Shown here one piece after another: positions 8,119-53,260 of a DNA stretch of 64,000 nucleotides (within the stretch, counting starts at the first letter, position 1; every line of letters begins with the position of its first letter). Both the position numbers and the translations under genes were made by a program. The notes beneath the pieces were generated by a model. That model did no database searches, was not told the origin of the DNA, and saw only the letters and a program-made list of their open reading frames with translations. Source of the DNA: Xanthostigma xanthostigma (lineage: Eukaryota; Arthropoda; Insecta; Raphidioptera; Raphidiidae). The stretch covers positions 20,438,001 to 20,502,000 of the forward strand of contig OY754466.1 of the NCBI GenBank assembly GCA_963575645.1, in the 5' to 3' direction.

Positions 8119-8328
8119 ATTGGTTGTCTGTAAAGTCGTTTTACGGACGATAGTTTTACGTGATAACGTATTCCGTAATACATAACCTAAATTTTAGTAG
8201 CTGTCAAGCTTGGGCCGAAGCATACTGCGCTCTCGCTTGCACGCACAGGGTCAGGCGGAACGTTAGGAACGTTACACTTTTTCGTGTGTGCAGCTGGTGT
8301 TTCATCAATTTATAAGACGTTATCACGT
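8119..8328 (-). mobile_element. Helentron-like non-autonomous element, copy B (210 bp)
   Basis: This is the shortest copy with both shared ends: GACGTGATAACG-type motif at the right edge (final C absent) and ACGTGATAACGT plus stem-loop and AACCAAT at the left edge. It lies between A-runs. The interior of about 100 bp contains 'ctgtcaagcttgggccg' and 'cgcacagggtcaggcgg', shared with copy C. Confidence 0.65.
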
Positions 8329-8500
8329 AAAAAAATTAAAGATAAGATTTTTTTAAAATGTACTAAAAAATCGATAATTTAAGTTTATAAATAAAAAAAA
8401 ACGTGGGTTGTAAACTCTACTATATGTCATCTACGGTTTTATAATTTATTATGAACCTAAAAAAATTGAAAAACAGTTTGACCCTGCAGGTCATCCCTGA

Positions 8501-9023
8501 AACTTCCCACTTTTTTTGAGTTCAAAACGCTCAAAAATATATAAAATATAGCAAGAGTTTAAAAAAAAGCACTTTCTAACGAATTTTTCGTTCATGATAT
8601 CTCTTGAACAAATGAACCGATTTTGATGCGTTTGCAGCAATCGACGCAATTTTGTTGATGAGAAGAGCTGATTAGATTTTGGAATTAATCGGTTTACTGG
8701 TTTAGAAAATATTACAAAAAAACAAATTTCTAAAAAAATTTGAAACTTGTATTTTTGTGATTTCTCAAAATCTACTCCAAATTTTCAGGAAATATAAGTT
8801 CAGCAAAGTCACGCCAGAAGCCACAAATGTTCAAAAGTAATACATACACACACACACACACACACATACAGCCCTACGGACATCATTGCCAAAATAGTCA
8901 GAATAGCTTCCCAGTACCTCAAAACGTAAATATCTGACGAAAATTCGGTTTCAAAAATCGGGGTGAAAACAATAACTTCCCGATTTTTTTGAATAAAATT
9001 ATTGATTTTTTAAGTGGGAAGTT
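8501..9023. mobile_element. 523-bp TIR element, ends AACTTCCCACTT
   Basis: It begins AACTTCCCACTT at 8501 and ends AAGTGGGAAGTT at 9023. A CA microsatellite lies inside at about 8845-8868. There is no coding and I saw no clear target-site duplication, so the superfamily is left open. Confidence 0.6.
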
Positions 9024-10510
9024 AAAAATAGTATTTCCTTTTTAGTACATTTAGTACATTTCTTTAAAAAGTTTCGTTTTACAAACATTTTTTCATTTTA
9101 CTTATTCTCTAGACCCACTGTAATAATTGAGTTACGAACAAGCTTAGTGTCAGATAGGGTAATGTCAAATTAGAATTAGTTTGAATACGTCAATTTGCTG
9201 ATTAAAATGCTAAATATTGATTGAAAATGAACTGTCATAATGAATGGTGATTACGAAACACTTCGTATCATTTCGATGTGAGAGTTAAGTTTGTAATTAT
9301 TATCAAAGCAATTAATTATTTATAAACAAACTTTCATCATTATGCCATGATTTACTATACACTAAAATATTTGTTTCAAATATTATGGATCGAATTTGTA
9401 CTTAATTTATAGAGTTATGTATTAATAAAGTTAAGACTGTCACCAGCTAACAAAACTTTGTCAATTAAGCTTCAAGTTCCAAAAGCATCAGTTATTATGT
9501 ATCAACTGCGCACAAAGAGAAAATTATACAAACTGAATAATTCAGTAGCAGCTCAGAAGACAAACTTTTCATAAATTTTTTAATAAAATTAAAAAAGTTT
9601 CGATAATAATTTGTCAGAATAATATGCTACAACAGTTTATAAAAATTCAAGGAAAAATTTTCTTTTCATTAATAAAAAGATCTCGCAAGTGATGAAATGC
9701 AAAACTTGTTGGTTTTTACGGTTATAACACTGCGTAGATAAACATAATCATCGTGAAACTATAGATGATTTAGGTTCGAATCCCGGCAATGCCATATAAT
9801 TTTTTTCCTATCAATGAACGCTTATAAAGGTTTTTGTTGAAATTAAGGTTAAAAATTTAAAAAGTGAACAGTTTTTAAATTTATTAAATAATTCAATTAT
9901 TGTAATCGAACCATCAAATTTTAACTTCTTACAGTTTCAAAACCTCTCTAACGTAAAACAATTACGTGACCGGTTCTGCTCGAATGAGCGAAATTGGATG
10001 TTAAGATTGACGTCACGAGAGTTAACTGTTTTAATTAAATAAAGGAACCAAATTTATCATTTTTATTGTTCATTATAGTGATTTAAAAACGTCAAGAATC
10101 AATTAAATTATCTTTTCAAACTTTGAATATTCGATTATTGTGAAATAATTTCTCAAGTTTTAATTAGATGCATTACATTTGATTTGAAGCTTGTTAGTAA
10201 CAGTTCAAAGCGTTTCTAGAGATGTCAAGGTTGGCTGAATAAATACAGTTTTAATAGTTCTGCATTGACGCCAAAGAGACTGGTTGAAATTTCGGAAGCT
10301 CATTCTGTGATATCAAACTAAATTAGCAGGCTTTAAAAGGCTCAAAAATTAAAGCTTAACCTCTACTCCGTGTTCATTTAATGCTACCTTACATATTTAA
10401 TTTTTGATTGATCAGTATTTTTCCTTAGGATTTCAATAATGGTTGTTGGGAAATTAAACTGACAATAGTTTTTCAGGCGATTTCATAACGGTAAAAGTAT
10501 CTCTTCAAAC
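9024..10510. other. no gene; isolated box-B-like motif
   Basis: AT-rich. 'aggttcgaatcccggcaatgc' near 9772-9792 is a good RNA polymerase III box B, but I see no convincing box A or cloverleaf upstream, so it is at most a SINE remnant. Nothing else was recognised. Confidence 0.4.
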
Positions 10511-12131: not shown

Positions 12132-12384
12132 ATTGGTTGTCTGTAAAGTCGGTTTACGGACGATAGTTTTACGTGATAACGTATTCCGCTCGAATATCAT
12201 ATTTAATAATACATAACCTAAATTTTAGTAGCTGTCAAATTTGGGCCGATCGTGCTTCTCTATCGCTTATACTGCGTTCTCGCTATCACGCACAGGGTCA
12301 GGCGGAACGTGACACTTTTCGGAACGTTACACTTTTTCGTGCGTGCAGCTGGTGTTTCATCAATTTATAAGACGTTATCACGTC
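12132..12384 (-). mobile_element. Helentron-like non-autonomous element, copy C (253 bp)
   Basis: Same termini as copies A and B, with A-runs on both sides. The segment 'gctcgaatatcatatttaat' next to the 3' subterminal motif is shared with copy F (about 53185-53204) and absent from A, B, D and E, so C and F are one subfamily. F has roughly 300 bp more interior. The two overlapping small frames here are not genes. Confidence 0.65.
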
Positions 12385-21295: not shown

Positions 21296-21745
21296 ATAAT
21301 TGTGAAAAAGTGCAGAGTTTTTCCAAAAATATGTTTTTTGTAGTCGGGGAACCTCAAAACGAAAAAATATTGAAATATTAAAATTTTGAAAATGATTTTT
21401 GATCAGCACCATTCCCTACTTGTGGGTTGGAATGGTAAAAAAACTGTTTGAACACGGTCTATTATACGAATTCTATAATATAAAAATTTCTCCTCTTTCG
21501 TTTAAGACAGGTTTCGAACCGATCTGATTTTAATTGAGCGAGTTATAAACAAAAAAATTCATTTTTTTCTTTTGTCCCCTTTGGCACTAAAATTCAAAAA
21601 TTGAGCGACGTTTGGTCAAATAGACCCTGAGACGAAACGAACAAAAAAAGTTTTTTTAAAATCGTGTGAATAGTTTGGGCTGTACGTGGGCTACAAAAAA
21701 AGCTTGACAGATTCACAGACGAACAGACAAAGCAATTATATAAAG
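21296..21745. repeat. junction of an ACCATTCCAAC-family end (-) and a 'cacagattc' repeat (+)
   Basis: The minus-strand head of the ACCATTCCAAC family ends at 21436. From about 21437 the plus strand matches the repeat at 42.6-42.95 kb: 'ttctcctctttcgtttaag', 'cgaaccgatctgattt', 'gagcgagttata' and 'tttgggctgtacg', ending in 'cacagacgaacagacaaag'. Confidence 0.6.
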
Positions 21746-28274: not shown

Positions 28275-28641
28275 CACCTTTACAAGTAGTAAGTTGTATA
28301 AGTACACTCGCTATGTCTGACAAATTGTTAATTGAAAGCGAGAATATGTTATAATGTACGATTAAATGTTAAATAATTGTGATTGTGACAGTGTGCAGAC
28401 GTGTCGCGAAACGTGTCCCGAATCATATTGATTTATTAACTAATTTAATTAAAATAATTTCGATACTTATACTTATATATAAAATAATACTTTAAAATTT
28501 CTTTTTAATAAAGTGAGTTAATAACGGAACAAATGTGAACAATAACCAAATAACTCACTGATTGCAATTATTTTGTATTAACAAAGAAAAAAGAGTTAAA
28601 AAAAGTAAGTAGATAAATATAAATAAACTGCAGTTACAAAA

Positions 28642-29589
28642 ATGTCAGACGTTTGTGGCCAATGTAATATTAAGATAACGGCCACTAGGCAACTACCAAA
28701 GGTAAACTGCAGTGATTGTCTTAAATCATACCACGGAAAATGTGTGAATATGAGTACAGTGGATATTGATTTTCTTAATTCGAGTTCCAATATTTGGAAA
28801 TGTGACAAATGTACTACAGTTGTCAAGGAAAAAAGTAGACGTGATTCGGTTAGTAATGTTACTGATCTAACGCTTCAAAAAATACTTGAACAATTAACGA
28901 AACTAAATGAAACGCAAACAAGTATGGCCGAATCTCTAGAACTTTGTCACACTAAAATTTCCGAAAACAACGAATTAATTTTGGAACAAGAAGAAAGAAT
29001 TAGTAAGTGCATAAATGACATCAGTAAACTAGAAGCATGTAACAAAATATTAAAACAGGAAAATGAAGAATTGAAACTTAAAATCAACAGGCAAGAACAA
29101 TACACCCGAACCAATACTGTGGAAATATACGGAGTCCCGGATGTACGTGATGAAAATTTATATTCCACAATAAGTGCTATATCAAATGCTATAAAATTTA
29201 ATTTCCATGCAAGCATGATCGACGCAGCACATCGCCTTGGCCTAAACCCAAACCGTCCTCAAGAACCCAGAGGAATCATTGTTAAATTTGTGAGAAGATT
29301 TGATAAAGATGAATTTATTCGTCTAAAGCGAATCTACAGAACCTTAAGCACTAATGACCTGGGACCTGAATTCGCCAAACTTACAAACCAACCGCATCCA
29401 ATTTACATAAACGAATCACTTACTAAGTTTAATAGAATACTATTTGCTAAAACTAAGGCCTTTGCCAAATCTGCAGATTATAAATTTGTGTGGATAAAGA
29501 ACGGAAAAATATTCATGCGCAAGGACGAAAAAACCAAGTCATTTTTGATTGATTCAGAAAATAAGTTTCCAACAATGCCAGAAATATAA
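28642..29589 (+). CDS. LINE ORF1 protein: PHD-like finger, coiled coil, FP-like C-terminus
   Basis: 315 codons, first in-frame Met used. Residues 5-57 carry C5-C8, C23-C26, H31-C34 and C54-C57, the spacing of a PHD-type C4HC3 zinc finger. Residues about 75-155 are charged heptad-like sequence, a likely coiled coil for self-association. From about 155 the text 'VEIYGVPDVRDENLY', 'DAAHRLG' and 'YKFVWIKNGKIFMRKDE' resembles the baculovirus FP25K-like domain common in insect LINE ORF1 proteins. The expected role is binding the element's RNA to form a ribonucleoprotein. The start is upstream of the zinc finger and downstream of an AT-rich leader. The frame is intact. Function is inferred from family resemblance only. 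Confidence 0.85.
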   Translation: MSDVCGQCNIKITATRQLPKVNCSDCLKSYHGKCVNMSTVDIDFLNSSSNIWKCDKCTTVVKEKSRRDSVSNVTDLTLQKILEQLTKLNETQTSMAESLELCHTKISENNELILEQEERISKCINDISKLEACNKILKQENEELKLKINRQEQYTRTNTVEIYGVPDVRDENLYSTISAISNAIKFNFHASMIDAAHRLGLNPNRPQEPRGIIVKFVRRFDKDEFIRLKRIYRTLSTNDLGPEFAKLTNQPHPIYINESLTKFNRILFAKTKAFAKSADYKFVWIKNGKIFMRKDEKTKSFLIDSENKFPTMPEI

Positions 29590-30039: not shown

Positions 30040-33027
30040 ATGGAACAATTAATGAAAGACATTGACACTGAAAACCATATAACGAATATTTCCACACATG
30101 ATATAACATACATACAATCTTTGCAGACTAAGAATGATCTTTCTATAATCAGTCTGAATATAAGAAGTATAACAAAAAATTTTGATGAATTATTGGTTTT
30201 GCTGGACTGTTTAAAAATAGACTTTGATATTGTGATCCTGACTGAATGCTGGTTAAACGATATGTATACACCGAAAGAAATTAAAAATTATATCAGCATT
30301 CAGACAGAACTACACTACAATCAGAACAGTGGAATAGTCATCTATACTAAAGAACATCTTAACATTACTAGTCTCGAAATCAAAATAAATCAAGGCAACT
30401 GCTTAAAAGTTACAATTGATGGCTCACTTTCAGTAATAGCAGTTTATAGATCCCCATCCGATAAAAATACCCTCCCGTTTCTTCATGACCTAAGACAAAT
30501 CATTGAGACAACTAACGAACAAGACGTGATTGTAATTGGAGACATGAATATTAACATACTCGACAGAAACAGACACCCACAGGCGGACGACTATTTAGAT
30601 TTGCTGGCAGAATTGAAATTCAGACCAGCCATCACAGTACCAACGAGAGTCAATGAAAATTCTCAATCGTGTATCGACCATATAATGTTAAAAAGTAGAA
30701 GAAACGCACGAGCAGCCGTTTTTGAGACCACACTTACAGATCACTACACTACACTGATATTTCTTGAACACAACAAAGTACATAGCACAACACAAAATAA
30801 AAACAAACTCAACAGCATACGTTCGATTCATTTTGAGTCGCTAAAGAATAATCTAGAACAAGAAACATGGCACTCAACACTGTCCACCCAAGATATCAAT
30901 TTGGCAACACACAACTTTATAACAACACTGCAAGCACACATTAACACTTCAACACAGACACGACAACTCAAACATAAACAAATCACACTAAAAAACTGGA
31001 TCACTCCTGGAATTCTGCGGTCAATCCACAAAAGAAACAAACTACACCAACAAGTCAAGAGATTTCCTCTTAATAATGCATTAAAAATCTATTATAAAAA
31101 ATATAAAAATATATGTACCAAACTTATTAGACAATCTAAAAGCGAATATTACAAAACGGAACTAAATAAACATTCATTCAACATACAAAAAACTTGGAAA
31201 ACAATACGAAATATCACTAACAAAAATGCACAAAAAACACAGTCAATAAACAAAATAGCTACCAACACACCTGACCTTATAATAGATGCAAACAAAGATC
31301 CAAAAACAGCTGCAAACGCTTTTAACAAACATTTTACTGATATAGGGACACGACTTGCAACACAAATACTCGAAAGACTAAACGTGACAGAAGAAATCCT
31401 TGCCAATAATACCAACCCCTCAATAAATCCGACACATTCCATTTTCTTAACACCAGTATGTGACCAGGAAGTTGCTGACCTCATACAAAATTTAACAGCT
31501 AAAAATTCATCAGGACCTGACAAAATTACTTCAGATATGCTCAAAAAAATAAATAAACAAATTTTAACACCTTTGGTATATATTTTTAATCTGAGCATAT
31601 CTCAAGGACAAGTACCGGCACATTTTAAAGAGGCTATAATTTGTCCAATTTACAAAGCTGGAGACAAAACTGACGTATCAAATTATAGACCCATATCATT
31701 ATTAAATACAGTTAGTAAATTACTTGAACAAGCCATAAAAAGAAGACTGACAAACTACTTAGACCAAAATAACATACTTTCAACTAATCAGTACGGTTTT
31801 AGACACGGACGGAGCACTGACGACGCCATTATACACTTGACTCGACAAATAGTTACTGACGTAGACCAACATAAAAAAAGTTTAGCAATATTCTTGGATC
31901 TGGCTAAGGCTTTTGACACAGTATCCCACAAAATCCTTCTTCGAAAACTATGCAACATTGGAATACGTGGAGTGGCGTTGGAGTGGTTTGAGAGTTATCT
32001 CCTTGGTAGAAAGCAAGTTTCAAAAGTGAACGGTGTAGTCAGCGAGGAACAAACGATTACGTTTGGTGTTCCGCAAGGTACAGTCTTAGGTCCAATATTA
32101 TTTTTAATATACATGAATGACCTCTGCAAATTAGATATTGACGGATCAATTGTTTCTTTCGCTGACGATACTGTTCTGTACTTTTCTGCTGAAACCTGGT
32201 GCGAAACCCATACTAAGGCATCGAATGGCATAACAAAAGTACATGACTGGCTTACTAATAACTTACTTACCTTAAATACAGATAAGACTAAATATATGAC
32301 TTTCAGCCCAACTACTCACGGACAACCAGACTATGTAAATTTAGCAATTCATCAGTGCGGACAAAACAGACAACGGAAATGTAATTGTAAAACCTTAAAT
32401 AAAACAGAAAATATCAAATATTTAGGTGTGACAATTGACAATAGACTCAAATGGACCATTCACGTACAGAACTTGACAAATCGACTACGAAAACTTATAT
32501 ATATATTTCTATCTTTACGTAATATCTTAAATAGACAACTTATGAAAAATGTATATTTTGCTTTATGTCAATCCATACTTAGTTATGGTATAGCTGCTTG
32601 GGGGGGTACCTACAAATCCATTCTTGCACCACTCAAAAACACGATAAAATTACTTGTTCGTATTATTTTGCATAAGGATCGATTATTCCCTTCCAAAGAA
32701 TTGTTCAAAGAATTCACAGTTCTACAGATAGAACAAATTTACACTAGAACAATTCTTTCCTTTTACCACCGACACCCTAACCTTCAAAATCCTATCGATC
32801 ATTCGTACCTGACAAGATCCCAAAGCCATTACTCTGTCCAAACCCCTAAAATGTCAAAAACTTTTGGCCAGAAACATATGGTGTTCCTTGCCCCAAAACT
32901 ATTCAACCTACTGCCTGCAGAACTGAAGTCCATCAATAAACAAGAAACTCGCAAATTCAAATCAAAGCTAACAGACTGGTTAATTAAAGAAGAAAACTTA
33001 GACTGCATCCAGCAAATACTTTCGTAA
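30040..33027 (+). CDS. LINE ORF2: endonuclease and reverse transcriptase
   Basis: 995 codons without a stop. N-terminal apurinic-type endonuclease: N40 in 'SLNIRS', E69 in 'LTECWL', Y136 in 'VYRSP', D168 and N170 in 'GDMN', D213-H214 and D234-H235. Reverse transcriptase from about 490: 'SGPDKI', 'NYRPISLLN', 'QYGFRHGRSTDDA', motif A with D620 and D626 in 'IFLDLAKAFDTVS', 'GVPQGTVLGPILF' (676-688), and the catalytic 'FADD' with D709-D710. A C-terminal region (about 790-960) with 'YLGVTID' and 'SYGIAAWGGTY' follows. These activities nick the target DNA and copy the element's RNA there. All key residues I can identify are present. The minus-strand frames inside it are shadows. Clade assignment to the CR1/L2 group is by resemblance. 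Confidence 0.95.
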   Translation: MEQLMKDIDTENHITNISTHDITYIQSLQTKNDLSIISLNIRSITKNFDELLVLLDCLKIDFDIVILTECWLNDMYTPKEIKNYISIQTELHYNQNSGIVIYTKEHLNITSLEIKINQGNCLKVTIDGSLSVIAVYRSPSDKNTLPFLHDLRQIIETTNEQDVIVIGDMNINILDRNRHPQADDYLDLLAELKFRPAITVPTRVNENSQSCIDHIMLKSRRNARAAVFETTLTDHYTTLIFLEHNKVHSTTQNKNKLNSIRSIHFESLKNNLEQETWHSTLSTQDINLATHNFITTLQAHINTSTQTRQLKHKQITLKNWITPGILRSIHKRNKLHQQVKRFPLNNALKIYYKKYKNICTKLIRQSKSEYYKTELNKHSFNIQKTWKTIRNITNKNAQKTQSINKIATNTPDLIIDANKDPKTAANAFNKHFTDIGTRLATQILERLNVTEEILANNTNPSINPTHSIFLTPVCDQEVADLIQNLTAKNSSGPDKITSDMLKKINKQILTPLVYIFNLSISQGQVPAHFKEAIICPIYKAGDKTDVSNYRPISLLNTVSKLLEQAIKRRLTNYLDQNNILSTNQYGFRHGRSTDDAIIHLTRQIVTDVDQHKKSLAIFLDLAKAFDTVSHKILLRKLCNIGIRGVALEWFESYLLGRKQVSKVNGVVSEEQTITFGVPQGTVLGPILFLIYMNDLCKLDIDGSIVSFADDTVLYFSAETWCETHTKASNGITKVHDWLTNNLLTLNTDKTKYMTFSPTTHGQPDYVNLAIHQCGQNRQRKCNCKTLNKTENIKYLGVTIDNRLKWTIHVQNLTNRLRKLIYIFLSLRNILNRQLMKNVYFALCQSILSYGIAAWGGTYKSILAPLKNTIKLLVRIILHKDRLFPSKELFKEFTVLQIEQIYTRTILSFYHRHPNLQNPIDHSYLTRSQSHYSVQTPKMSKTFGQKHMVFLAPKLFNLLPAELKSINKQETRKFKSKLTDWLIKEENLDCIQQILS

Positions 33028-39848: not shown

Positions 39849-41946
39849 AAAAAAGCTTAGTCCGCCTTCTTTAGAAGTCCGCCATATTGAATTAAAAGTG
39901 ACGTCACTTTATTTTTCGAGTTATTCTCAGCAAGCCCTTTCATTTGATACCCATATTGTAGGAAAGCATAATAAAATTAATCCGCCATCTTTAGAAGTCC
40001 GCCATATTGGACTTAGAGTAAATTCACTTTATTTTTCGAGTTATTTACAGCAAGCCCTTTCATTTGATACCCATATTGTAGGAAAGCATAAAAAACTTAG
40101 TCCGCCATCTTTAGAACTCCGCCATATCTGTTTGAGAGTTACGTCACTTTATTTTTCGAGTTATTCTCAGCACGCCCTTTCATTTGATACCTATATTGTA
40201 GGAAAGTATAATAAAATTAGTCCGCCATCTTTAGACGTCCGCCATATTGGATTTAGAGTGACGTCACTTTATTTTTCGAGTTATTTTCAGCAAGCCCTTT
40301 CATTTGATATCCATATTGTAGGAAATCATAAAAAACTTGTCCGCCATCTTTAGAAGTCCGCCATATTGGTTTTAGAGTGACGTCACTTTATTTTTCGAGT
40401 TATTCTCAGCAAGCCCTTTCATTTGATACCCAAGTTGTAGGAAAGCATAATAAAATTAGTCCGCCATCTTTAGACGTCCGCCATATTGGATTTAGAGTGA
40501 CGTCACTTTATTTTTCGAGTTATTCTCAGCAAGCCCTTTCATTTGATACCCATATTGTAGGAAAGCATAATAAAATTAATCCGCCATCTTTAGAAGTCCG
40601 CCATATTGGATTTAGAGTAAATTCACTTTATTTTTCGAGTTATTTACAGCAAGCCCTTTCATTTGATACCCATATTGTAGGAAAGCATAAAAAACTTAGT
40701 CCGCCATCTTTAGAACTCCGCCATATTTGTTTTAGAGTTACGTCACTTTATTTTTCGAGTTATTCTCAGCACGCCCTTTCATTTGATACCTATATTGTAG
40801 GAAAGCATAATAAAATTAGTCCGCCATCTTTAGACGTCCGCCATATTGGATTTAGAGTGACGTTACTTTATTTTTCGAGCTATTCTCAGCAAGCCCTTTC
40901 ATTTGATACCCATATTGTAGGAAAGCATAATAAAATTAGTCCGCCATCTTTAGAAGTCCGCCATATTGGTTTTAGAGTGACGTCTCTTTATTTTTCGAGT
41001 TATTCTCAGCAAGCCCTTTCATTTGATACCCATATTGCAGGAAAGCATAATAAAATTAGTCCGCCATCTTTAGACTTCCGCCATATTGGATTTAGAGTGA
41101 CGTCACTTTCTTTTTTGAGTTTTTTTCAGCAAGCCCTTTCATTTGATACCCATATTGTAGGAAAGCATAATAAACTTAGTCCGCCATCTTTAGAAGTCCG
41201 CCATATTGGATTAAGAGTGACGTCACTTTATTTTTCGAGCTATTCTCAGCAAGCCCTTTCATTTGATACCCATATTGTAGGAAAGCATAATAAAATTAGT
41301 CCGCCATCTTTAGAAGTCCGCCATATTGGATTTAGAGTGACGTCACTTTATTTTTTGAGTTATTTTCAGCAAGCCCTTTCATTTGATACTCATATTGTAG
41401 GAAAGCATAAAAAACTTAGTCCGCCATCTTTAGAAGTCCGCCATATTGGATTTAGAGTGACGTCACTTTCTTTTTTCGAGTTATTTTCAGCAAGCCCTTT
41501 CATTTGATACCCATATTGTAGGAAAGCATAATAAACTTAGTCCGCCATCTTTAGACGTCCGCCATATTGGATTTAGAGTGATGTCACTTTATTTTTCGAG
41601 TTATTCTCAGCAAGCCCTTTCATTTGATACCCATATTGTAGGAAAGCATAATAAAATTAGTCCGCCATCTTTAGAAGTCCGCCATATTGGATTTAGAGTG
41701 ACGTCACTTTATTTTCCGAGTTATTTTCAGCAAGCCCTTTCATTTGATACCCATATTGTAGGAAAGCATAAAAAACTTAGTCCGCCATCTTTAGAAGTCC
41801 GCCATATTGGTTTTTGAGTGACGTCACTTTATTTTTCGAGTTATTCTCACCAAGCCCTTTCATTTGATACCCATATTGTAGGAAAGCATAATAAAATTAG
41901 TCCACCATATATAGAAGTCCGCCATATTGGATTTAGAGTGACGTCA
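39849..41946 (+). repeat. 120-bp tandem satellite, 17 full units plus a partial one
   Basis: 'ctttatttttcgag' recurs every 120 bp from 39904; unit lengths are nearly constant (119-121). The partial unit is at the left end. The unit contains two direct 'gtccgccat' segments and, at its boundary, TGACGTCA in about 11 of 18 junctions. Because 120 is a multiple of 3, long open frames arise (39898-40353, 40377-41507, 41578-41817) coding a 40-residue repeat; no start signal, domain or codon evidence supports a protein. A three-unit block (units 1-3) is repeated as units 6-8, giving higher-order structure. Confidence 0.9.
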
Positions 41947-42189
41947 CACAGCTAACCATGCATTGTCATCCAAACTAAACGTGTATACAAATTTTCATCT
42001 CAATCGGTTGAAGATATTATCTGCTTCAAAATTATCGAAGGCATTCTAGTCGCTCACTTAGTAATTTAGTCGCTCACTTATTAATTTAGTCACCCAAATA
42101 TTATTTTAATATCTCAAGTTATTAAAACAGGATTTCATCATCAGTCACCAAGTTTTTTTTTATTCAACTGTTTTATAATTCCCCTATTA
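41947..42189. other. flank of the satellite with repeat-like text
   Basis: 'caaattttcatctcaatcgg' near 41988 is of a type common at insect repeat ends; 'agtcgctcacttattaat' is duplicated near 42045-42085. No gene. Confidence 0.4.
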
Positions 42190-43001
42190 TTATTATATAA
42201 AACAACATTATAAGAGATATATTCTTTTACGCATGCGCCGATGTTCCCCAAAAACAATAGGCCAATTCATATTTGCATATCAAACATCCTCCCAAAATTT
42301 GGTTTCAATCCGCTCATCCGTGGTGTCGGAATGGTAAGAAATGTCAAAAGTGACGTTTGCATCTGTCAAAGTATTATGTTCTGATAATTAGTTATTCAAA
42401 TTGTTAACTCAGAAGGCGTTGCATTTTACAAATATTGAAACGGCATCCGTTTTTGAACAAATGCTACCTTTTTATTTCATTATTGTAATAAATAATATTA
42501 TCGACCAATTTTATTTTAAGACAGAACATACGCAATTTTGAAATTGCGATGTTAAACCATGCAACAGAGAGAGATAACCGAAAGATGTTTTCCATCGGTT
42601 ATATCAAATTGAATTTATTTCTATATAAATGTGTATAAAAAAACTGTTTGGGCATTTTCTGTTGTACGATTCTTATGTAAAATTTTCTCCTCTTTCGTTT
42701 AAGACAGGTTTCGAACCGATCTGATTTAAATTGAGCGAGTTATAAGCGAAAAACTTCGTTTTTTCCTTATTGCTCCCCTCTGGGGTCAAAATTCAAAAAT
42801 CGGCCGACGTTACGAGCTAAGTTACGCGGAGACGAATCGAACAAAAAAAAGTTTTTTAAAATCGGTTAAGGCGTTTGGGCTGTACGCGTGACACAAAAAA
42901 ACGTGACACACAGATTCACAGATTCACAGATTCACAGATTCACAGATTCACAGACAAAGCGAGTACATATAGGCGCTTTAGCTTACGCTATTCGCGCCTA
43001 A
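42190..43001 (+). repeat. mosaic repeat ending in 'cacagatt' tandem and hairpin
   Basis: Shares about 500 bp with the interiors of Helentron-like copies A, D and E ('cccaaaatttggtttcaatc', 'gacattt', 'ttcgtttaagac'). It continues through 'aaatcggttaaggcgtttgg' and an 8-bp tandem array (about 42911-42955, unit 'attcacag') to a hairpin TAGGCGC...GCGCCTA at 42970-43000. The left limit is estimated. Confidence 0.65.
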
Positions 43002-43130
43002 AAAAAATTAATATTCGTTTTGGGCAAACCTTTTTGATTATTCAAACGCGCCATTTTTGCGCGCGATTTCTGTGACATCATATTCTATGTCAACAATTTT
43101 GTTAAAATTTTGTACTGAAAATAGTATATT

Positions 43131-43560
43131 GTGCGACTAGTGAGAGAAAGGGAAGATTCCATGAGCGTGAAATTTGCCGCACGAGCGTAGCGAGTGCGGT
43201 AACACGTGAGTGGAATATTCTCCTTCGATCAATAGTCGCACATAATACTTTATTCAACTAGCACGAGTAATATGTAATCGGGGCCCTGATAAAAGAGGGA
43301 GAAATAATAAATCACTTCTGTGATTGACGTACCCATCGCCCTCGATGCACACAAGATGGCCCTGACTTTCGCTGAATTGCGATGCTGTTTTCATATATAC
43401 CAATCGCTACCGCGTTCCTATTGGTCCAGAAACTGTGCAGTAATATATTACCGTACAGTTTCGGCTTATTATTCGCACTCTACGCGTCAACATGAAGTAA
43501 TTTATTATTTCTCCCGAATTTAGCAGGGCCCCGAAATTATATATTACTCACGCGGTCTAA
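43131..43560 (+). mobile_element. double-hairpin MITE family, full copy
   Basis: The first hairpin, 43131-43241, begins GTGCGACTA and ends TAGTCGCAC, with 'gccgcac' and 'gtgcggt' pairing near its apex. A second, outer-spaced inverted pair brings together 'gtaatcggggccctg' (about 43272) and 'cagggccccgaaattat' (about 43524). Between them lies 'ctgtgcagtaatatattacc'. Other copies are at 59368-59855 and 17329-17680 (-). The 67-codon frame here recurs in the other copies and is part of the repeat. Confidence 0.75.
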
Positions 43561-45903
43561 TCAACAGCTTTGCGTTTGGTTATTTTATATTTCCGCCGTA
43601 TTTAATGCAGTTTTGTTCAATTCATATTTAATATTCAGCAAAAATTTAAAAAGAGAAAACTATTTAGAGTTTAAATAAATTCAATAAAGATTCCAAAAAA
43701 TAATATTTGAACTAAATATAAGTTACATGCATATACCTACGTTGTTCAGAAATATTAATAAAATAAGTATGTTTACGAAGAAATAATAGCGTCACATAAT
43801 ATGCGCAAGAGTGGTAAGGTTCAAATTTCATATTTTTTTAAAAAAATTGCGTACCTATAACATGTTTTTGTACTCCGAAGAGTTAGGTACTACCTACAGT
43901 TACTCAAAAGAGAAATGCGATTTATTGCAAACTAAGCTGTTTTTACAACTTCCATACTTACTACGCGTTTGAATCGTATAAGCATAACGTTGCTTATTGA
44001 GATTAGAAAATTATGACGATAATCGTTTAATATTATTATGCATTTATTATTTTGTGAATTAAAAGATGCAGTAAATGAATGTAATCCTATTGATTATTAA
44101 TAACTAATTATTCGTTGTTATAAATAATGTTTCTTTTACAAATTCTTAGCAATACTTGTTGTTAAATCTAAAGATATTATTGACACTTAAATTTTTAAAA
44201 CATAGGAACTGTTTACAAGGCTAACACGGAATTTTATTCGAATCGTCTGACAACACTTACGAGTAGTTGAACTAACAAGAACATAAATTCATATTTGTTG
44301 GCATAGGGCCGAATGGGTTATGTCCATTTTTTAAGATAATATTAATGACGATTTATCCATTTATTTCATTTATGCCCATTTTCACTGAAAACTATTAAAG
44401 ATAGAAATTACTATTCTTGGAGCATTTGTTAGAATAAAATTTACTTTCAATTCACCAAGCAAAATATCAGGTAGAAAAGTTAGTTAAAGAATAAATATTC
44501 ACTGTGCTATATTCCTTGCTCTTTTTGTTGAATATTTTGATGTTCACCTAAAAATCCGACCGATGGCGTTAGTGTAGACGTCAAAAAAACGTTTCACAAA
44601 ATAATAATATTTTATCCTAACCCAATTTCACCCAAAACTTCCACTAACTTTAATGTTTTACAACTATACTCTTCACAAAAGGTTAATAAACAACACATAC
44701 ATAAATTCACAAGAGCAACTGTAGATATAATACTCCACGTTTATAGGTTAGGTATTATGATCTATGTCCTATGGCCATTATTATTTTTTTTTTTATTAAA
44801 AATGCATTTTTGACAACTTGGTCATTCATGCGAAAAAATAAAATAAAACAAAATAACAAAAATATACATCGTACATTAGCTTAAGTACTGCTAGATAAGG
44901 AACAATCTGTATTGTTAGTTCACATTATTATTTTATCAGGTGAATAAATATTTATACCCTGGAAGTAAGACAAAATAGATTTAAACACGATTTGGGAACC
45001 ACCTCCTCCCTTTCTACTACTGTCCTAACGACACAGTAACTAAAAAAGTAACAAGAAAAATACACGTAAAATTTGTTCGTAGAAATCAATGGAAACATAC
45101 CTAGTTAAAATTTTTTTAGCTCCCTCCAAAATCTGTTTTACTGGTTAAAACTATTCTTTTGGGGAAATAATAAGCTTCATTTAGTTCATAAAATTTAGTG
45201 TAGGGGCCCCAAAAAAGCTAGTTACGTCCCTGATACTTCATTTCTCTGGCGTCTGACTATAATTAAGAACTAATGAGACAAACAAAGAGAAATAAAATAG
45301 TCGCATGGTCGACATAAAAAGAGGCATCACTTACATAACTCGATCGGTTAAAAAATTGCCAAAAATTATCAAAAACACTACATAGGTGAATTTGTATTGT
45401 GGTCCCACATACAAACACAGCGAACATTGACGTTACGGTACAAAATAACAGGCATTATAATGAAGTGTTTTCTGTTGTAATTATCGTATGCCCAATAATA
45501 ACATATCTGCATTAACGGTTATGTACGTTTTATGTTATAAATAACATGCCACGTATCACGGAACAGTGTTTATGTGATCGATGCTCTCAAAACTGCAAAT
45601 TGGACCGCGACAACAGGAACAGTCAAAAACAAAGTTTAAAACAAAATTCGCTTTGCGCTAAAAACCAGCCTTCACTTTGAGTCATTAACAATAGTAGGCC
45701 CAAGGTTAATAGACTTCATAGGTTATTTGACAATCGTTTCTGACGACAAGATTTTTTTTAATATAATGAAGCCGGTTCGGTACACGAGGGCCGTTCACAG
45801 CTGAGATACATTATGTAAATTCATGGTAGAGTAATGTTACGGGTCAGCGAGGAGGCTTTCCTGGCACAACTGACTGCTAAAACGACATTGACACTATAAT
45901 TAG
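43561..45903. other. no recognisable feature
   Basis: Over 2.3 kb of AT-rich DNA. 'gctagttacgtccctg' near 45218 is a phrase also seen near 54605, probably a repeat trace. No gene recognised. Confidence 0.45.
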
Positions 45904-47289
45904 AGTGCAATTGTTAACTTGCAAATAGCCCCGAAAGTTAAAAGAACACGTTTTTTTCACTATTTTTGACGTGATAACGTCTTATAAATTGATGAATCAC
46001 CAATCTTATAAACACCGGCTGCATGCACGAAAAAGTGTAACGTTCGTAACGTTCCTAACGTTCCTAACGCGTAACGTTCCGCCTGACCCTGTGCGTGCTT
46101 TTTGCTAATTTCTCGCTCAATTTAAATCAGATCGGTTTGAAACCAGTCTTAAACGAAAGAGGAGAACATTTTACATAGATTTCGTATAACAGAATATGCC
46201 TAAACAGTTTTTTTATACTTTATATAGAAAAATATTTTATACAAATTTATATAGAAAAATAGCTGTATAAATGCAATGTTGTCTAATGCATGGCGCGACG
46301 TGGTCGGTCGTCTTTGTTTGCCGTACATGGAAATTAGAAAATAACGTATGTCTTGTCTTAACATGAAAACGGCTGCATTTCTAATGTTTAATTCAATTTT
46401 TTGACATTAGTATTTTGTGAAATGCAACGCCTTCTAAGTTAAGTATTGGAATAACTAATTATTATTAGAACATAATACTTTGACAGTTGCAAACTTCACT
46501 TTTGACATTTCTTATCATTCCGACACCAAGGATAAGCGGATTGAAACCAAATTTTGGGAGGTTTAGGTTATGTATTACGGAATACGTTATCACGTAAAAC
46601 TATCGTCCGTAAACCGACTTTACAGACAACCAATTTTTTTACTAAAAAACGACCGCACAAAGATGGTTGAAAATACTCAAAAATGATGTCTATGTTGACC
46701 CAAACATGCATGAATAATTTTAGCGTCATCGGTCAATTACTTCTTGAGTAATTAACGATCACTTTTTTTTGTTTCCTTAATTGCATTTTTTTCACAAACG
46801 AGTTTCGCTGATCAGACCAAGCCAGAAAAAACACAAATCCATTCAACTTTAGCATCCTGTTGGAATTTTTGGAAAAAATTAATTCTAACCAATTTTTTAA
46901 CGATTGAATATTGGAAAAGTACTATGGTTTTATACGTTTGTCTAAAATTGGTATCACTAAAGAAATCGTTATAAAATCGGTTAGAATTATTTTTTCCCAA
47001 AAATTTCAACGGGATTTGTGATTTTTCTGGCTTGGTCCGACCAGCGAAACCCGTTTGTGAAAAAAATGGCGCAATTTGCAATTTGGGAAACAAAAAAAAA
47101 AGTGATCGTTAATTACCCGAGAAGTAATTGACCAATGACGCTAAAATTATTCATGCATGTTTGGGTCAACATAGACATCATTTTTGAAAATTTTCAGCTA
47201 TCTATGTGCGGTCATTTTTTAGTAAAAGAATAGTGAAAAAAACGTGTTTTTTTAACTTTCGGGGCTATTTTCAAGTTAACAATTGCACT
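45904..47289. mobile_element. foldback element with Helentron-like copy D in its left arm
   Basis: Outer ends AGTGCAATTGTTAACTTG (left) and the inverse (right) bound arms of about 340 bp. The left arm is 45904-45967 plus 46635-46917; the right arm is about 46933-47289. Pairing runs through 'cataggg'-free AT-rich text such as 'ccaaacatgcatgaataat'. Copy D (45968-46634) interrupts the left arm; the right arm is uninterrupted. The 93-codon minus frame is part of the arm. Confidence 0.8.
45968..46634 (+). mobile_element. Helentron-like non-autonomous element, copy D (667 bp)
   Basis: 5' terminal GACGTGATAACGTC, 3' inverse motif (about 46584-46596), then stem-loop and AACCAAT, with T-runs on both sides. 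Near the 5' end 'gttcctaac' and 'gttcgtaac' are tandemly repeated (about 46039-46080). The interior matches copy A nearly throughout, including the same junction at 'gggagg|tttagg'. Confidence 0.7.
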
Positions 47290-47699
47290 TAGCGACCTCT
47301 GTCAATGCTCATTTTTTAGGAAATTTCATAAGGAACAACTTTCTCAATACATATGCTATACTAAAAGTCAAGAGGAACGGAGATATTAAAGGAAATAGAG
47401 AAAAAAACACTATTTTCGTCACTAATTGTTAATTATAAAATCAAGCACACCAGCAATTTATAAGCAAACTTAGGGGGTTGAACTACAACCTAAAACGAAG
47501 CGATTCCAACAATAATCTCGCCTGTGCCCGAAAAATACACCCAAAACTCCTCGCCGTCTCGCCTACAAATATTTAACTGATTCATCTGATAGGGTCCAGT
47601 CAGTTACATCGTTGTTTATTTTTACTTTATTCGGGTTCGGTGGACGTCAAAATGTAAACAGTTTTGTTTGGAATTTGGATGGATTTAAAGTTATGTTCC
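47290..47699. other. no recognisable feature
   Basis: Nothing coding or repetitive recognised. Confidence 0.5.
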
Positions 47700-50411: not shown

Positions 50412-52199
50412 TGGGAAAAAAAGGCTTGAATCCGGTGTGTCTCGAATCGAAAAATGTTTCCTACCAAAACAGTAGAGTCAAGCTGCTCCGACATTTTGGT
50501 ATATATGTTGGAGGAGGCGGCGGAGGATATGTCGCTTTAAAGTTCCGGAAAACTCGTTTTTGCCCCATAGCTCGGCCATTATTATCGGGGGTGGGGGAAA
50601 TGTTCCAAGAAAAGTTGTAGAGAAAAAGAATCCGCGTAAGCTCGTTCTAGACCGGGTCTGATCAGACAACCGGTTCACGATATATCGCCATTTTAGTCCG
50701 CGAAATTTTGAAAAATTGAATGCCATTTTTTAAAAACCCATTGCAGCTAGGAGCTCAATTTTTTTATAGCAAAGGTACTAAAGACCTCTTCTTTGCACCG
50801 GAAGCTAGACGCGGTGGGTCAATCAGAACCGGCAGGAGAGGGGTAAAACGATGTTTTTTAAATCTCCCATAACTGGTTCTAATTGACGTATTGATCGAAA
50901 CGAGACGTCATTTTTTTCGTTTTTTGACGTGATAACGTCTTATAAATTGATGAATCACCAATCTTATAAATTGATAAAACACCGGCTGCATGTTCGAAAA
51001 AGTGTAACGTTCGTAACGCGTAACGCGTAACGTTCCTAACGTTCCTAACGCGTAACGTTTTTTGCTAATTTCTCGCTCAATTTAAATCAGATCGGTTTGA
51101 AACCAGTCTTAAACGAAAGAGGAGAACATTTTACATAGATTTCGTATAACAGAATTTGCCTAAACAGTTTTTTTATACAAATTTATATAGAAAAATAGCT
51201 GTATAAATGCAATGTTGTCTAATGCATGACGCGACGCGGTCGGTCGTCTTTGTTTGCCGTACATGGAAATTAGAAAATAACGTATGTCTTGTCTTAACAT
51301 GAAAACGGCTGCATTTCTAATGTTTAATTCAATTTTTTGACATTAGTATTTTCTGAAATGCAACGCCTTCTAAGTTAACTATTGGAATAACTAATTATTA
51401 TTAGAACATAATACTTTGACAGTTGCAAACGTCACTTTTGACATTTCTTATCATTCCAACACCAAGGATAAGCAGATTGAAACCAAATTTTGGGAGGATG
51501 TTTGATATGCAAATATGAAGTGGCCTATTGTTTTTGAGGAACATCGGCGCATGCGTAAAAGAATATATCTCTTATAATGATGTTTTATATAATAATAATA
51601 TAGTTTTTAAAACGGTTTTTACTCTATCTATTTTTACTAGAAATTTTTGTAAATTTTTTGGGGAAAATCGGCGCATGCGCAAAAGAGATACATGCCATAG
51701 TTGTTTTTTATATAATAATAGTGTACTTTTTATAGTGTTTTATTATTCTACTTAATAAAATTTACCTAAATTTGAAGCGAAAGATGCAATATCATAGATT
51801 CGAATTATTGTAATTATTATATAAATTTAGGTTATGTATTACGGAATACGTTATCACGTAAAACTATCGTCCGTAAACCGACTTTACAGACAACCAATTT
51901 TTATATCTACTTTTATGTGAAAAGTGAAAAAAAATTCTCACAAACTCAACTGCTTGTGGGCGAAATAAAGTATTGTTACATAAACTGTCGTCAAAATTAC
52001 TTTTCCTTAGCTAGGCAGCAAAATTCATTTGAATTTTGCTGCAAAAATGGGTTTTTCGAAACTTTAAAGCGGCATATCCCCCGCCGCCCCCTCCAACATG
52101 CGGTCACAAACTATACCAAGATGTCGGGGGAGCTCAACTCTACAGTTTTTGTAGGAAAAATTTTTCGAATCAAGACACCGGATTCAAGACTTTTTTCCA
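50412..52199. mobile_element. foldback element with Helentron-like copy E in its loop
   Basis: Arms 50412-50566 and about 52041-52199 are inverted through 'cttgaatccggtgt', 'cctac', 'cgacat' and 'atgtcgctttaaagtt' variants. The loop contains copy E (50926-51898). Without E the element would be about 0.8 kb. A perfect small palindrome (GCAGCAAAATTCA and inverse) sits at 52015-52043. The frames in both arms are mirror images and not genes. Confidence 0.75.
50926..51898 (+). mobile_element. Helentron-like non-autonomous element, copy E (973 bp, longest)
   Basis: Shared termini as in copy D. Its interior holds, after 'ccaaattttgggagg', about 330 bp lacking in A and D ('atgtttgatatgcaaatatg', 'gcgcatgcgtaaaag'). 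That section is also present in the ACCATTCCAAC family (55140-55260) and in part at 42.2 kb. Tandem 'taacgcg' and 'gttcctaac' units lie at about 51005-51058. Confidence 0.7.
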
Positions 52200-52708: not shown

Positions 52709-53260
52709 GACGTGATAACGTCTTATAAATTGATGAAACACCGGCTGCATGTACGAAAAAGTGTAACGTTCCGCCTGAGCGTGCAAGCGAGAGCGCGATA
52801 TAAGCGATAGAGAGGCACGATCGGCAATGGCAATATGGCGCTAATAATAATTAATAAATGTCATTTTATTTTGTTAAAAATAACTGATCGCCGTCATTAT
52901 GGATAAAATATGATATTATTCACAACGAATGGAAATGTATTGATCAATTGATAGTTTGTACACAAACGCAGCTACATTTTGTATCAAAAACAAATCTTGG
53001 GAGATATCTGCATTTCATATAGCAGATAAATTATACGGTTTGTTAACAAATATATAATATATATAGGTACATTCTTTTAAATGTCTTTTATAATTGCTTA
53101 AAAATATGTATTTTGCTTTGGCTGATCAAATTATTAGTCGGTAAAAATACAGTTTGACAGCTACTAAAATTTAGGTTATGTATTATTAAATATGATATTC
53201 GAGCGGAATACGTTATCACGTAAAACTATCGTCCGTAAACCGACTTTACAGACAACCAAT
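52709..53260 (+). mobile_element. Helentron-like non-autonomous element, copy F (552 bp)
   Basis: Same ends, T-runs on both sides. The interior shares its outer parts with copy C (including 'ttaaatatgatattcgagcg'), but holds about 300 bp not seen in other copies (about 52835-53135). No coding. Confidence 0.7.

Follow-up and report, generated by a model that had tools for sequence, protein, structure and literature searches.

How did a 666-bp sequence come to lie in one arm of a foldback whose other arm is without it, and what kind of element is it? The locus is found in a 64,000-nucleotide stretch of contig OY754466.1 from Xanthostigma xanthostigma (referred to here as the window), and its features are given on the + strand unless stated otherwise. 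The arms at 45904-46905 and 46964-47289 are inverted copies of each other, with five segments that are 88 to 95% complementary. The left arm comprises a part leading up to the insertion point (45904-45967, 95% complementary to 47226-47289) and an inner part (46641-46905, with inverted repeats I1, I3, I4, and I5), which are mirrored by paired segments of the right arm from 46964 to 47289. An earlier note on this DNA had stated that an element, copy D, interrupts the left arm and that the right arm is intact. When the alignment that it suggested was run, a single long gap containing D was obtained in the global alignment of the arms, which bears out the statement. The edges of the gap coincide with the ends common to copies A to F in the window, the point on which the note had said that its reading could fail. 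The filled left arm reads CACTA-TTTTT-(GACGTG...AACCAA)-TTTTTTT-ACTAAAAAA, with T5 at 45963-45967 on the 5′ side of D and T7 at 46634-46640 on the 3′ side, compared to CACTA-TTCTTTT-ACTAAAAAA in the empty right arm, where the empty site, CACTATTCTTTTACTAAAA, is on the - strand at 47235-47217. The net gain at the filled site, T5-D-T7 compared to TTCTTTT, is D plus 5 T. Based on the arm alignment and the ends common to the window copies, D, which is classified below as a probable non-autonomous Helentron-type (HINE-like) element, occupies 45968-46633 (GACGTGATAACGTC...GACAACCAA). The ends proposed earlier, GACGTG... and ...AACCAAT within T-runs, hold down to the T-runs but not to an exact T; the last T of AACCAAT is inseparable from the target T-run, and the ends of D are fixed only that far.

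Which of the two arms shows the original state was asked of the source genome (623 Mb, 28 contigs). A pattern bridging the insertion site, which detects empty sites only and leaves filled copies invisible and uncounted, gave 499 genomic matches, compared to 0 for the reversed-pattern control. Among the 100 matches listed, the spacing between the anchors was 7 nt in 89, 6 nt in 4, 8 nt in 6, and 10 nt in 1, and pure T7 was present in 14 of the 18 places whose letters were read. Measured against the 7-nt spacing of those 89 sites, the gain in the left arm is the same, D plus 5 T. Because this spacing predominates, the empty state is the ancestral one, and the claim that one molecule supplies both the filled and the empty site gains the backing of the genomic matches. 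It could be argued that the right arm is instead an excision scar from which D was lost by precise deletion, since its TTCTTTT differs by one base from most paralogs within the T-run. However, the 499 other matches are D-less, with an identical spacing in most of those listed, and both arms align straight across the joined site in three full palindromes elsewhere in the genome (L017, L029, and L034). The copies read speak against most foldbacks having D in both arms, as an excision scar would demand. On the strength of the D-less genomic copies, loss of D from the right arm was rejected, and an excision scar is scarcely credible.

The foldback itself extends farther than the mirrored arms. A search for right-arm relatives in the source genome gave 1,117 first-look candidates, of which 40 were scored and 30 loci were read; one of these was the window itself, leaving 29 others. 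In 25 of the 29, homology to the right arm continued unbroken to 47540-47576, and many of the loci read shared a right end, ...CTCCTCGCCGTCTNGCC followed by TA. Since the homology in other loci runs unbroken past 47289, the foldback element reaches 47563, with its left arm truncated at 45904, and 47289 is simply the point where the truncated arm ceases to mirror the right one. The remainder of the right arm (47290-47563) terminates in ...CTCCTCGCCGTCTCGCC and then TA. The proposal of a foldback stretch at 45904-47289 therefore stood as regards the pairing of the arms but not as regards their extent. An outer left arm was looked for upstream by comparing 47300-47570 with 43000-45925, and none was found; the best local score was only 25, elsewhere, at 44090. 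In the palindromes L017, L029, and L034, a loop of 58 to 68 nt separates arms that are ∼570 bp or longer, and over the part compared, the arms were ∼500 to 575 bp in L014, L017, L029, and L034. Both ends were found in 8 of the 30 loci, and TA was present on both sides in five of these (L017, L018, L034, L037, and L038). The other three were L012, with TC on the right, L027, with an altered right end, and L029, with no TA directly before GGC; the window copy has a right end only, GCC followed by TA. The host foldback belongs to a family of its own, marked by long inverted arms and by the ends GGCNAGACGGCGAGGAG, and the TA by itself suggests a Tc1/mariner-type MITE. The host resembles long-arm foldback MITEs of this type in its long arms and TA flanks. 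It differs from them in that the window copy is without the outer left arm and carries D, and no transposase was linked to the host.

The anatomy of D points to its class. At its 5′ end is a self-palindromic subterminal repeat, GACGTGATAACGTC (GACGT-GATA-ACGTC; 45968-45981), and at 46584-46595 is a 3′ subterminal repeat, ACGTTATCACGT, which is the exact 12-nt inverse of 45969-45980 and sits 38 nt from the last non-T base. Between this repeat and the 3′ end, the sequence GTCCGTAAA-CCGAC-TTTACAGAC (46605-46627) folds into a hairpin of 8 pairs, one mismatch included, that stops 6 nt short of the last non-T base. When the 39-nt tail was shuffled 500 times by mononucleotide, 2.2% of the shuffles folded equally well, so the hairpin is modest evidence. 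In PMC4067079, HINEs are described as having palindromic subterminal inverted repeats (subTIRs) of 12 to 15 bp, a 3′ subTIR ∼38 to 60 bp from the end, a 3′ palindrome, T-rich targets, and terminal T's that vary in number, with no target modification; how the flanking T's are divided is left unclear there. D has repeats of this length and palindromic form, its 3′ subTIR lies at 38 nt plus the terminal T's, and its family has T-rich targets with variable terminal T's. The 3′ palindrome, at 6 nt, falls within the ∼8 to 35 bp given in that source only if at least two T's belong to the element. The start of the 5′ subTIR coincides with the last T or lies 1 nt from it, with the terminus hidden in the T-run, compared to ∼2 to 4 nt for HINEs in the same text. 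The label "Helentron-like" given to D earlier is supported, resting on the palindromic subterminal repeats, the 3′ hairpin, and the T-run target. The features of canonical Helitrons (5′ TC, 3′ CTRR, and insertion between A and T) are absent, the ends being GACGTG and ACCAA between T-runs. The closest counterparts are HINE/DINE-1-like elements, such as HINE-Mo of Metaseiulus and HINE-Cq of Culex (PMC4067079), with which D shares the subTIRs, the 3′ palindrome, the paralogous empty sites, the T-rich target, and the variable terminal T's. The D family differs from the elements described there by the ∼five extra T's and by one copy with nine extra bases including a C.

Five other copies with the same ends are present in the window: A (985-1625), B (8120-8329; beginning with T rather than G), and C (12133-12384) on the - strand and E (50926-51897) and F (52709-53259) on the + strand. 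In the source genome, there are 22,897 exact occurrences of the 26-nt D-type 5′ end and 17,838 of the 37-nt 3′ end, with 0 in each reversed-pattern control. Among the first 40 5′ ends listed, 29 were accompanied by an exact 3′ end no more than 2 kb away, which corresponds to element lengths of 170 to 1027 bp, and 11 had none. Thirty-six copies with both ends were read, a non-random set made up of 28 best matches to D (D included), the five other window copies, and three incidental ones; it omits L027, which has a 5′ end only, and L001 and L009, which repeat the window. The T-run was 2 to 12 nt long (mean 5.6) before the element and 2 to 13 nt (mean 7.5) after it, with at least 4 T before GACG in 35 of the 36 copies and at least 5 T after AACCAA in 34. 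The flanks differed among the copies save for a few in shared repeats (L070, L078, and L085). Given these two-ended copies and the empty controls, the recurrence of the ends is not due to chance. A 21-mer of the 5′ end had no exact match in IMG/VR or GTDB contigs, and three search strings had none in the literature searched. The D family is of a known kind, with no sequence match in these collections. At C2:28208428-28209143 of the source genome (G000), a D copy directly adjoins an inverse piece of the D 5′ end, as judged from the coordinates.

The interior of D (46099-46561) was probably acquired from elsewhere. Its two end parts, 46099-46236 and 46414-46561, match portions of a repeat, X1, that extends past them on both sides, both in the window (42185-43004) and in L091. 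This interior is missing from the short copies, B among them, and is probably a captured fragment whose amplification, in copies like A and D, came later. The repeat is ∼750 to 820 bp long and occurs in the window at 42185-43004 and 21436-21709 and in L091 at 8629-9381, with parts inside D, A, and E; copy E holds a longer piece of it. The window also contains a non-LTR retrotransposon with two open frames, 28627-29589 (Baculo_FP_2nd) and 30040-33027 (endonuclease and reverse transcriptase; 995 amino acids [aa]), and a tandem array at 39857-41947 with 17.4 copies of a 120-bp unit and 92% matches. The long open frames in this array arise because 120 is a multiple of 3.

What the insertion did to its target was addressed with other filled and empty pairs. 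For each of the 36 copies, the two flanks were joined and set against all sequence read; apart from D, four pairs gave an alignment that crossed the junction. First, L078 had a gap of 6 relative to each of two relatives. Second, L081 had gaps of 6 and 5 relative to two window copies, and its site measured 8 nt in 74 of the 100 places listed (1,342 in all) compared to 13 in L081, a gain of 5. Third, L087 had a gap of 7 in a loose alignment. Finally, L005b reads C-T6-element-TT-C-T7 compared to an empty C-T7, a gain of 9, and its empty site measured 8 nt in 34 of 40 genomic places (1 match for the reversed control of the pattern). Thus, four of the five comparisons fit gains confined to the T-run, the loosely aligned L087 among them, and L005b gained 9 nt including a C, an outcome not expected under a strict rule of no duplication. 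The gains of 5 to 7 nt in those four sites could represent a short T duplication, and D also has inverted repeats near both ends, as would be expected of a MITE that moves by cut and paste and duplicates only T's of its target. However, the 3′ inverted repeat is not terminal, having 38 nt with a hairpin beyond it, and in 35 of the 36 copies, the right tract holds no second copy of the base that precedes the left T-run, so that a MITE of this kind is very unlikely. L005b can be read in another way, since its C sits where a duplicated target would place it and the gain looks like a 7-bp duplication. On this basis, the Helentron-type family would duplicate a target of ∼4 to 7 nt, which is masked by all-T sites and unmasked by the C in L005b. 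This is improbable, and the simpler reading of this one case is a chance T-to-C change with growth of the T-run, because the corresponding base is unrepeated in the other copies. If target duplication is nevertheless real, it would mean a staggered cut by the Helentron endonuclease rather than a simple single-strand insertion.

The C-T6 on both sides of the element in L005b, the variable number of T's on both sides, and the high copy number would also suit a SINE-like retroposon viewed from the opposite strand, one that carries a 3′ A-run and has duplicated a short target. Such an origin is hard to reconcile with the inverted palindromic subterminal repeats and the 3′ hairpin, with the recurrence of both ends (29 of the first 40 listed), and with the finding that ARAGORN detected no tRNA in the window, and it is given very little credence here.

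A partner for a Helentron-type D was sought among the proteins of the source genome. Three open Helentron-type frames of 2216 to 2504 aa were found, each with Helitron_like_N, PIF1, and DUF6570 domains and with differing extra domains: OTU in L089 (2504 aa), UCH in L090 (2477 aa), and, in L091 (2216 aa), a domain that by eye we take to be Ulp1-like, with no Pfam hit. No D-type ends were found at the expected sides of these frames in flanks of 632 to 2486 bp, and neither the 30 Rep loci L039 to L068 nor L089 to L091 gave a match to the 18-nt D-type 5′ end with up to 2 substitutions allowed. Four scattered short-motif matches with two mismatches (up to 2 allowed) in the flanks of the three frames were taken as chance: in L090, one downstream like GACAACCAAT and one upstream like ACCGACTTTACAG, and in L091, two on the wrong sides. 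On C2, a Rep match lying 6 kb away from a D copy was also dropped; a nearby plus-strand match looks, from coordinates only, like an inverted 5′ fragment adjoining that copy. Separately, the loci L055 to L068, spread over several contigs, contain Helitron_like_N frames, most of which are 1555 aa long. Their 540-base Rep match was identical in 14 of the 14 loci compared, and 4 of the 13 loci compared with L055 were identical over all 3,540 bases, which suggests a very recent burst.

Taken together, D is very probably a non-autonomous Helentron-group (HINE/DINE-1-like) element that inserted into a foldback MITE older than itself, at a run of about seven T's in the left arm. Counted in favor of this are the gap of D plus 5 T, the D-less genomic matches, the T-runs on the two sides of the copies, the subTIRs and hairpin, the end counts, and the open frames. 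Counted against it are the three frames, whose flanks as read have no D-type ends where these would be expected, the gain of 9 in L005b, and a hairpin only modestly better than the shuffles. A Helentron may have supplied the Rep/helicase/endonuclease protein that moved D in trans, through rolling-circle transfer of a single strand into the T-run, and the ∼five T's would have come with the element or by expansion of the T-run rather than by target duplication.

The foldback serves as an internal control, in which a single molecule carries the site both with and without the insertion, and the empty state is confirmed in hundreds of paralogs. Many of the more than 22,000 exact 5′ ends in this genome probably lie in repeats whose empty sites can be counted in the same way, and such comparisons could settle whether the terminal T's belong to the element or arise by duplication of target T's.
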